From positions 1 to 40,672 of the forward strand of contig WJMS01000103.1 of assembly GCA_014727815.1 (NCBI GenBank): a DNA stretch of 40,672 nucleotides, in the 5' to 3' direction. Below, in pieces: positions 16,086 to 19,128 of this stretch; within the stretch, counting starts at the first letter, position 1; each line of letters opens with the position of its first letter. Below the pieces are notes generated by a model. That model worked only from the letters and a program-made list of their open reading frames with translations, was not told where the DNA came from and did no database searches. The position numbers and the translations under genes were made by a program. The DNA comes from a candidate division GN15 bacterium (GTDB lineage Bacteria; Zixibacteria; MSB-5A5; GN15; FEB-12).

Positions 16086-16484
16086 CTACTCCGTCGGCTC
16101 CAGATCGCAGATCACTTCGGGCTGCCAGCTCTCATTGACCCAGAGGCCAACCACCCGAACCGGGAGCTTCCAGGAACGGATCGTCTCGACCGATTCCTTG
16201 ATCATCTGCTTGTGCTTGTCCGGCGCGACCGGATTGCCGGCGCAATCATGGTGTCCGACCAGCACCACCGCGTGTGAACCGTGCTTGTTGACCGATGTTT
16301 CCAGCCGGCTTTTGATCTTGTCGTCCTGCCAGATGAGGTGCTCGGTGAGCAACAGGTCGACCCCCGGTTCGGTAATGGTGTCCACGTAGTCTACGCCGAA
16401 GTACTCCTTTGCCCAGATGCTGACGGGCTCTTGAACTCGACCGTCCATACAGGTGATTGCCGTTGCGAAGGTTCCTTGTGCCAT
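16086..16484 (-). CDS. Small beta-carbonic-anhydrase-like zinc protein
   Basis: 132 residues from the ATG at 16484 (MAQGTFATAITCMDGR), with GGGAGA 7 bases upstream; the frame is open to 16673, but that extension overlaps the rluD-like gene and is not protein-like. The beta-carbonic-anhydrase ligand pattern is visible: C12-x-D14-x-R16 and H78-x-x-C81 in VLVGHHDCAGNP. Classical beta enzymes have about 200 residues with an N-terminal arm and an extra helix that are missing here, so this belongs to a compact subfamily. CO2 hydration is possible but unproven. Last gene of its run, followed by a terminator. Confidence 0.8.
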   Translation of the reverse strand: MAQGTFATAITCMDGRVQEPVSIWAKEYFGVDYVDTITEPGVDLLLTEHLIWQDDKIKSRLETSVNKHGSHAVVLVGHHDCAGNPVAPDKHKQMIKESVETIRSWKLPVRVVGLWVNESWQPEVICDLEPTE

Positions 16485-16557
16485 TGCGGATCTCCCAGCC
16501 TTGTCGTTGTCCTCGCGATCGACGCCGCGATCAGTGCTTGTTAGGACAAGATACGAC

Positions 16558-17550
16558 TTACCGACCTTCGCGGTCAAGCAGATCAAGAACCATCTGCATA
16601 TCGGTCGGCGGCGGCGCCGACACTTCGACCGGTTCACCCGTGAATGGATGCGTAAACGCCAGCGCGGCGGCATGCAGGGCCTGACGGTCGAGATTCTCGA
16701 GTAGTCTTTGCGCCAGCGGCCGCTCGGGCGCGAAGATACCGCGCAACTGTCTTGACCGGCCGCCGTACTCCGGATCGCCCAATACGGGGTGCCCCAGGTG
16801 GGCGCAGTGCACCCGAATCTGGTGCGTGCGGCCGGTGAGCAGAGACAGCTCGAGCAAATCGAATGAGCGGTAGCGTTCGAGCACCCGATACTCGGTCTGG
16901 GCGGCCCGACCGGTCTGTTCCATCACCGCCATTTTCTTGCGATTGCGTGAAGAACGGCCGATCGGCAGATCGATCAGCCCGGCTCGGTCCCGCATGTGTC
17001 CAAAGACAACCGCGAGATATGTCCGCTTCAACGTGCGCGTCTGAATGGCCTCCTGCAAAGCGGCGTACGCCTCCTCGCGCTTGGCCACAACCAGCAGGCC
17101 CGAGGTGTGTTTGTCGAGACGGTGAACGATTCCCGGACGGTCGGCGCCTGAGCCGGATGGCAGGGATTGGAAATGGTGTATCAGGGCGTTGACCAGCGTC
17201 CCCGAATAGTTGCCGGGGGCCGGGTGCGTGACCAGTCCCGGCGGCTTGTTGACCACGGCCAGGTAGTCATCCTCGAAGAGTATCTCTATCGGGATATTCT
17301 CCGGCGCCAGATCGGTCTGTTCGGTCGGCGGAATGTGGATCGCAATCTGCTCCCCACCGGTCAGTTTGGTGCGCGGCGGAACCTCCCGCCCATCGAGCCG
17401 AATCAGGCCGTCGGTCAGCAGCTTCTGGATCCGCGTGCGAGAAAGGCCGACCTCATCGAGATCGGCCAGATAGCTGTCGATTCGGATAGGTTGGACCGAA
17501 TCGGGAACGGTATGCTCGAGTGTGCGCCCCTGTTCGCGGTCGGCGGTCAT
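16558..17550 (-). CDS. rluD: RluA/RluD-family 23S rRNA pseudouridine synthase
   Basis: 330 residues: an N-terminal S4 RNA-binding domain (about 22-75; IDSYLADLDEVGLSRTRIQK) and a pseudouridine synthase catalytic domain (about 88-310). The catalytic aspartate is Asp146 in GIVHRLDKHTSGLLVVAK; LTGRTHQIRVHCAHLGHPVLGD and HAAALAFTHPFTGE are also family landmarks. The S4 domain plus this size fits RluD (helix 69 of 23S rRNA), though RluC cannot be excluded. Starts 9 bases after the pdxJ-like stop. Confidence 0.92.
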   Translation of the reverse strand: MTADREQGRTLEHTVPDSVQPIRIDSYLADLDEVGLSRTRIQKLLTDGLIRLDGREVPPRTKLTGGEQIAIHIPPTEQTDLAPENIPIEILFEDDYLAVVNKPPGLVTHPAPGNYSGTLVNALIHHFQSLPSGSGADRPGIVHRLDKHTSGLLVVAKREEAYAALQEAIQTRTLKRTYLAVVFGHMRDRAGLIDLPIGRSSRNRKKMAVMEQTGRAAQTEYRVLERYRSFDLLELSLLTGRTHQIRVHCAHLGHPVLGDPEYGGRSRQLRGIFAPERPLAQRLLENLDRQALHAAALAFTHPFTGEPVEVSAPPPTDMQMVLDLLDREGR

Positions 17551-17559
17551 GACGGAGTC

Positions 17560-18288
17560 CTACGACTGCGGCGCGGACCGAATGATCTGGATGAGATCGG
17601 TGACCGCCTGCGTGAGACCGACCATCAGCGCCCGGCTGATCACCGCATGCCCGACCACGAACTCATCGATATTCCCCAGCTCAACCAGCGATTCGATATT
17701 CTTGTAGCTGAGCCCGCCCCCGGCCCGCACCCGCATGCCGGCTTTGTTGGCCGCCTGGGCGGCGGTATCGATCCGATCGAGCCCTTCCTGGGCCTGGTCG
17801 ATCGTGCGGGCGTCGGAATACTCCCGGCAGTTGATCAGGATCGCCGATGCCCCCGCTTTACCGGCGCCCTTGACCAATTCCGGCTCCGGTTCCACGAGAA
17901 AACAGGTACTGATCCCTGCCCCACGAAACCGGGCGGTGATCTCGCCGTAGTCGACCGGCGCCGAGGCGAAGTCGATACCCGATACCGGCGTGTCGCTGTC
18001 GGCGTGGTCGTTGACGAAAGTCACCATCCACGGGCGCACCTCCAGTGCCTTGTCGATCAGCGTATCGACCGGTGGCAGTTCGAGCGCCAGGCGCGTGCGG
18101 ACCAGTTCCCGAAGGATATACATGTCGCGCTCGCGGAGATACTTGCGGTCCCGGCGCAGCTGCATCGCGATTGCATCGGCCCCCGCCAACTCGGCCAGCA
18201 CGACCATCTGGGCCGGATCCGGATCCTTCATCCCCCGCATTTTTCGCAATACCGCTACCGGGTCAACCCGGATAGTTAGTGATGCCAC
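17560..18288 (-). CDS. PdxJ-family protein lacking the catalytic histidines
   Basis: Full-length homologue of pyridoxine 5'-phosphate synthase (242 residues), aligning almost without gaps to E. coli PdxJ: VLRKMRG, DPDPAQ, AELAGADAI, LRRDRKYLRERDMYILR, RLALEL, YSDARTIDQAQ, VGHAVISRALMVGL. The active site is strongly changed. NIDH becomes RVDP (residues 7-10); the catalytic His of HLREDRRHI is Gln43 and its last His is Tyr50; the catalytic His of NAGHGL is Gly191. Glu70, Arg45 and the phosphate-site Gly213-His214 remain. A true PNP synthase reaction therefore seems unlikely, while phosphate-ligand binding may persist. The GTG at 18288 (AGGGG 5 bases upstream) matches the family N-terminus better than the TTG at 18309. 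It lies between rsmA and the rluD-like gene. Confidence 0.85.
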   Translation of the reverse strand: MASLTIRVDPVAVLRKMRGMKDPDPAQMVVLAELAGADAIAMQLRRDRKYLRERDMYILRELVRTRLALELPPVDTLIDKALEVRPWMVTFVNDHADSDTPVSGIDFASAPVDYGEITARFRGAGISTCFLVEPEPELVKGAGKAGASAILINCREYSDARTIDQAQEGLDRIDTAAQAANKAGMRVRAGGGLSYKNIESLVELGNIDEFVVGHAVISRALMVGLTQAVTDLIQIIRSAPQS

Positions 18289-18336
18289 GGTTACCCCTAT
18301 ACTCGTCAAGCGATTGTGTCTGTCAGTGTTGTGCTG

Positions 18337-19128
18337 TTATACGATGGTACGGGCGCGAAGATGCTTCGTCAACGCCAAAAACTGCTCGATTGTCACCTGC
18401 TCGGCGCGAACAGTCGCCGGCAGCGACATCTCCTCGAGCACCTCGCGCACCGTCTCGGCCCGGACATGAAAGGCTCGCGAGAGGTTGTTGGTCAGTTGTT
18501 TGCGACGCTGCGCGAAAGCCGCCCGGACGACACTGCGGAAGATGCCTTCATGTTCGATTGCCGGCGCTTCATGCGGGTACAGCGTAATGACCGACGACGT
18601 CACACCCGGCGGCGGCTCGAATGCAATCGGGGAGACATCAAATGCGATCGCGGGATCGAAATGCAGTTGGGTGAAGATCGACAGCGGCGACCAGGCTTTG
18701 GAATCAGGCGAAGCCGCCAGCCGCTCGGCCAGTTCCTTTTGCACCATGAAGATCGCCCGGTCGATCGACTCCCGGTGTTCCAGACACCACTCGATCACCG
18801 GCGAGGTGAGATTGTACGGTAGATTCCCGACCAGCGCAAATCGCTCGCTTTCCGGACGCCAGTTCAGGAAATCGGCGTTTATGATTGTCACATGCGGATA
18901 TGCGGCAAAGCGTTTCTCGAGGGCGGGAATCAGGTCGCGATCGAATTCTACCGCCGTAACGCGTGCGCCTTTGTCGGCCAGGCCAGTGGTCAACACACCC
19001 TGCCCCGGACCTACCTCGACAATAGCCTCATCCGGTTGCGGTGCAATAACACCGATCAGGCGGTCGAGGACATCAGTCGAGGAGAGAAAGTGCTGCCCGA
19101 GTCGCTTTTTGACACGGTAGCCGCCCAT
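18337..19128 (-). CDS. rsmA: 16S rRNA (A1518/A1519) dimethyltransferase RsmA (KsgA)
   Basis: Dimethylates two adjacent adenosines in helix 45 of 16S rRNA late in 30S assembly. 263 residues: KKRLGQHFL at the N-terminus, the SAM motif VEVGPGQGVLTTGL, the acidic VTAVEFDRDL, INADFLNW and the catalytic NLPYN (Asn102-Tyr105), then the C-terminal helical domain with AAFAQRRKQLTNNL. The start is 3 bases from the tatD stop, and the pdxJ-like gene follows after 48 bases. The metG-tatD-rsmA order is widely conserved. Confidence 0.96.
   Translation of the reverse strand: MGGYRVKKRLGQHFLSSTDVLDRLIGVIAPQPDEAIVEVGPGQGVLTTGLADKGARVTAVEFDRDLIPALEKRFAAYPHVTIINADFLNWRPESERFALVGNLPYNLTSPVIEWCLEHRESIDRAIFMVQKELAERLAASPDSKAWSPLSIFTQLHFDPAIAFDVSPIAFEPPPGVTSSVITLYPHEAPAIEHEGIFRSVVRAAFAQRRKQLTNNLSRAFHVRAETVREVLEEMSLPATVRAEQVTIEQFLALTKHLRARTIV

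Follow-up and report, generated by a model that had tools for sequence, protein, structure and literature searches.

In a whole branch of the Zixibacteria, the vitamin B6 protein PdxJ was probably turned in place, after PdxS/PdxT had taken over the pathway, into either a sensor or regulator of phosphate ligands or a new enzyme, and it would represent a previously unrecognised protein class. One such gene lies in the window, the whole stretch of 40,672 nucleotides analysed here, which is a contig (WJMS01000103.1) of a candidate division GN15 bacterium. An initial annotation had described it as a PdxJ homologue that lost its catalytic histidines, kept its fold and phosphate site and was repurposed.

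The PdxJ-fold gene in the window

Counted from a TTG start, the open frame covered 17560-18309 (-) and was intact. The true start is likely the GTG at 18288, behind AGGGG at 18298-18294, and the frame from this GTG corresponded to the coordinates of the initial annotation (17560-18288). The gene and its surroundings comprised the following features.

16558..17550 (-), rluD-like gene for a pseudouridine synthase; next gene downstream, a conserved neighbour in families f1-f4
17560..18288 (-), PdxJ-fold gene without the PNP-synthase catalytic residues; GTG start, profile match and model
18294..18298 (-), AGGGG, a Shine-Dalgarno-like motif that precedes the GTG start by 5 bases; direct sequence reading
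18337..19128 (-), rsmA/ksgA-like gene for an rRNA dimethyltransferase; next gene upstream, a conserved neighbour in families f1-f4

The names rluD-like and rsmA/ksgA-like are our own reading of the sequence. A small ORF adjoining rluD (16086-16553, -) matched Pfam Pro_CA_2, a putative carbonic anhydrase, at 2e-47, and its upstream extension overlapped rluD.

The window protein belonged to the PdxJ fold family by both profile and structure. It matched Pfam PdxJ (PF03740) with E=2.9e-59 and 200.4 bits against a curated cut-off of 24.5. This was the sole PF03740 match in the source genome, and a second, canonical pdxJ was looked for there and not found. Its homology to E. coli PdxJ (PDB 1HO1/1M5W) was evident from an alignment over residues 6-238 with 34% identity and no gaps, in line with the nearly gap-free alignment reported at first. 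The AlphaFold model (pLDDT 94.9) was a PdxJ-type TIM barrel with TM-scores of 0.90-0.92 to solved PdxJ structures. With 193.2 bits the protein also scored above the NCBIfam equivalog cut-off for PNP synthase (190 bits), and its NCBIfam label was PNP synthase.

Active-site residues

Residue numbers follow E. coli PdxJ with Met1; those of the initial annotation are 2 lower. The functional roles of the residues, including the catalytic His45, Glu72 and His193, are assumed to be those given in UniProt P0A794 and the structures. In the alignment D11, R20, R47, E72, T102, G194, G215 and H216 were unchanged, whereas N9, H12, H45, H52, E153 and H193 were replaced by R, P, Q, Y, L and G, respectively, which left Gln, Glu and Gly at the three catalytic positions. 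The following positions were involved (all assigned by alignment).

17647..17652 (-), G220-H221, the retained phosphate-loop G215-H216
17716..17718 (-), G198 for catalytic H193, a position held by Arg in most f1 proteins
17836..17838 (-), L158 for E153
18079..18081 (-), E77, the retained catalytic E72
18139..18141 (-), Y57 for DXP-binding H52
18160..18162 (-), Q50 for catalytic H45; Gln in 89% of family f1
18259..18270 (-), R14-V15-D16-P17 for E. coli N9-I10-D11-H12

The initial annotation had thus been correct that both catalytic histidines were replaced, that the ligand-binding pair was lost (H52 to Tyr, and H12 to Pro in RVDP for NIDH), and that Glu70, Arg45 and Gly213-His214 (here E72, R47 and G215-H216) were kept; the losses of E153 and N9 are additional. 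It had allowed for a sequencing error at the His codons or for displaced rather than lost histidines. The first was ruled out by the same residues in the separately assembled congeners G062 and G063, and the second by the 74 non-canonical genomes described below, none of which had His at 193.

The substitutions were specific to each family. The typical set of f1, strongly conserved, was Q45, E72 (retained in 95%) and R193 together with C156, D96 and the lid motif D-H-A-D-S-D-x-P, while H45, H193 and E153 were lost. The window genus had R9 and Gly at 193 where other f1 proteins had N9 and R193, a charge swap that is suggestive, with few independent pairs behind it. In f4, H45 and E153 were kept, and Q72 and N193 stood in place of E72 and H193. 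Family f9 had H45, Asn or Gln at 72, and G193; across f9 and f10 position 72 was Asn, Gln or Tyr. The beta4-alpha4 lid loop was missing altogether in f15 and f16, both of which were modelled as PdxJ folds, that of f16 remaining PdxJ-like despite the deletion. Judging from the aligned sequences, no acid or base common to the non-canonical families survives, while the phosphate-loop glycines do.

Distribution of non-canonical PdxJ in Zixibacteria

The phylum sample consisted of 132 Zixibacteria genomes, with the phylum read from organism titles. PdxJ was present in 85 of them. Only 11 of these 85 had a canonical active site (families f6, f12, f13 and f14), and the other 74 carried a non-canonical PdxJ (f1-f4, f9, f10 and f15-f17). 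His193 was found in all 11 canonical rows and in none of the 72 readable non-canonical rows. The other active-site residues were invariant in the canonical rows (10/10 each) and were retained to different extents in the non-canonical ones, i.e., H12 in 4/72, H45 in 18/73, E153 in 18/72 and E72 in 46/73. The first description of a kept phosphate site was borne out by row counts for the backbone glycines G194 (11/11 canonical vs 61/72 non-canonical) and G215 (11/11 vs 71/72), but less so for H216, which was variable among non-canonical proteins along with several substrate contacts.

Non-canonical PdxJ is therefore a clade-wide trait and not an oddity of one genome. In the tree, a modestly supported branch (94/70) separated the variant from the canonical rows and E. 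coli. With E. coli as the only outgroup the placement of the root is tentative, and the rows of f15-f17 sat on long branches. One change sufficed to account for the loss of H193. Patterns derived from f1, searched beyond the phylum, matched only Zixibacteria, two MAGs titled 'bacterium', one titled GN15, and one Gemmatimonadetes PdxJ, which was canonical.

Partners in the B6 pathway

PdxA supplies amino-acetone phosphate and Dxs supplies DXP for PNP synthase. PdxA was detected in ten genomes of the phylum, all belonging to f6 and f12-f14; 9 of the 11 canonical genomes were among them, but not one of the 74 non-canonical ones. PdxS showed the reverse pattern (0/11 canonical vs 70/74 non-canonical genomes above cut-off), and the split of PdxT followed that of PdxS. 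Canonical Zixibacteria PdxJ thus belonged to the same protein family as the non-canonical one but differed from it in its full catalytic set, its usual PdxA partner and the lack of PdxS/T. This partition spoke for a repurposed PdxJ. The Fisher test of it (p=6e-11) overstates independence, because a single ancestral event probably underlies the whole split.

The PdxS ORF of the window genome was intact and presumably carries the active-site lysine motifs of the family. PdxT was not found in this genome, which is 92.6% complete, while both congeners had one; the gap may reflect incompleteness, because pdxT of G063 lay within the same 7-kb stretch as pdxS. The PdxT loci of three other genomes (G049, G094 and G096) had one in-frame stop codon inside the PdxT match, which could be error or damage.

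Dxs was present in the window genome. No genuine Dxs was found in f9, f10 and f17, where G096 and all gene-bearing f9 and f17 genomes gave weak matches or none, and DXR was not found in these families either. Thus, they have no DXP by the known route and retained the gene anyway. HMG-CoA synthase (PF08540), taken as a sign of a mevalonate route to isoprenoids, was not found in these Dxs-less families (e.g., G090, G096 and G119-G122). A PF10590-type PNP oxidase was absent from all 132 genomes, including those with canonical PdxJ and PdxA, which makes it uninformative as a marker of the partition; the last B6 step must be done by something else.

With the catalytic residues lost, PdxA missing, and Dxs and DXR lacking in f9, f10 and f17, the ancestral PNP-synthase function has very probably disappeared from non-canonical PdxJ.

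Genomic locus and selection

The canonical families f12-f14 and the non-canonical families f9 and f10 shared the locus tatD-rsmA-c3-c0-c0-pdxJ, in which c3, c0 and c0 are unnamed families without a Pfam match, and f17 had the same locus plus one gene before pdxJ. Because canonical and non-canonical families have this locus in common, the gene was changed in place and not imported. The order in f1-f4 was PSP1-metG-tatD-rsmA-pdxJ*-rluD (pdxJ* being the non-canonical gene), and pdxJ of f15 and f16 was located in other gene contexts. The neighbouring genes serve general housekeeping and offered no hint of its function. At five loci (L110, L112, L113, L117 and L118), a ~600-aa protein and two ~200-aa proteins with lipoprotein-like starts (C-x-NPF) were encoded between rsmA and pdxJ, and the L110 copies of the intervening proteins had no Pfam match.

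In four f1/f2 genomes without pdxJ*, rsmA abutted rluD, which indicated that pdxJ* is dispensable and can be lost. Where the gene was present, frames were intact in nearly all genomes. The dN/dS of non-canonical pairs ranged from 0.02 to 0.13, with many pairs saturated at synonymous sites and the three unsaturated ones at 0.13, 0.12 and 0.05. Protein identity of PdxJ* exceeded that of rsmA in 12/12 pairs and that of rluD in 8/11. Non-canonical PdxJ is under strong purifying selection, and decay is excluded, as the initial annotation had argued from an intact frame in a housekeeping run.

Possible functions and history

Single copy, pathway partition, tree, purifying selection and conserved locus all supported the earlier proposal of a repurposed PdxJ: the protein almost certainly took on a new job, its gene being kept and strongly conserved after the B6 route was switched. 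As an enzyme homologue that has lost its catalytic residues while its gene is kept under selection, the protein is a putative pseudoenzyme; it may have a new activity. From the retained phosphate site, we infer at about even chances that it binds a phosphorylated ligand and acts mainly without catalysis, as a sensor, carrier or regulator.

The following history is proposed. An early Zixibacteria lineage would have switched its supply of pyridoxal phosphate to PdxS/PdxT and dropped PdxA, so that its single PdxJ was no longer tied to PNP synthesis. At an unchanged locus, pdxJ would then have lost His193 once, and the other catalytic residues would have been lost differently in each family, while the core of the TIM barrel and the glycines of the phosphate loop were retained. 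The pathway swap and the loss of the PNP-synthase machinery are shown by the comparisons above, as are the conserved locus and the purifying selection, whereas ligand binding and a non-catalytic role are inferred. In its present role the protein may bind a phosphorylated compound such as a B6 vitamer or a sugar phosphate.

The conserved set of f1 could equally form a new catalytic site, which speaks against a binding pseudoenzyme and for the main rival explanation, a PdxJ barrel re-tooled to convert a phosphorylated substrate in another reaction, its new site being made up of E72 and residues particular to each family (Q45, R193, D96 and C156 in f1). This has a real but clearly smaller chance. 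Fixed residues at the active-site strand ends, the high retention of E72 in f1, strong purifying selection and the kept phosphate-loop glycines are all consistent with it. However, the catalytic positions differ among families and no acid or base is common to them, E72 itself giving way in f4, f9 and f10; R193 is already Gly inside the window's genus, and the lid loop is deleted in f15 and f16.

A structural or protein-binding scaffold without a small ligand seems unlikely. A tie to rRNA modification was considered because pdxJ* sits between rsmA and rluD, an order found throughout f1-f4, and the variable H216 and substrate contacts would fit such a role. But f9, f10, f17 and the canonical families have different genes between rsmA and pdxJ, f15 and f16 have other contexts, and a scaffold would have no need of such conservation of the phosphate-loop glycines. 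It is highly improbable that PNP is still made by a modified mechanism: the window protein passes the equivalog cut-off and has kept R47, E72, the glycines of the phosphate loop and the overall fold, but H193 is always lost, PdxA is absent from all 74 non-canonical genomes, PdxS/T is present, and f9, f10 and f17 lack Dxs and DXR. Several relatives did lose the gene cleanly, but a decaying relic or assembly artefact can be practically dismissed: the frames are intact in nearly all genomes, the dN/dS values rule out decay, independent assemblies share identical residues, and the modelled fold is of high confidence.

Comparison with known systems and significance

Among B6 synthases a pseudoenzyme is already described for the other pathway, namely PDX1.2 of Arabidopsis (PMC6071262). 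It belongs to the PdxS family and has active paralogues alongside, whereas the only PdxJ copy in Zixibacteria is the altered one; the likeness covers the pseudoenzyme state, and a regulatory role for Zixibacteria PdxJ is putative. Literature searches for PdxJ with Zixibacteria found no paper, and those for PdxJ paralogues and pseudoenzymes gave no title describing a PdxJ pseudoenzyme.

A large survey of PLP pathways used the presence of pdxJ as a signature of the DXP-dependent B6 route and listed ten genomes with both B6 routes, e.g., Caldithrix and Fibrobacter (PMC9997740). The PdxJ of these ten genomes merits the same scrutiny of its active site. PdxJ has been treated as a family with one function, a rule that a whole clade of Zixibacteria breaks, and databases keep the old enzyme label for the non-canonical proteins. 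The clade offers a clean natural experiment, with one orthologous locus, one pathway swap and one common loss of a catalytic histidine, after which the old active site diverged under strong constraint.
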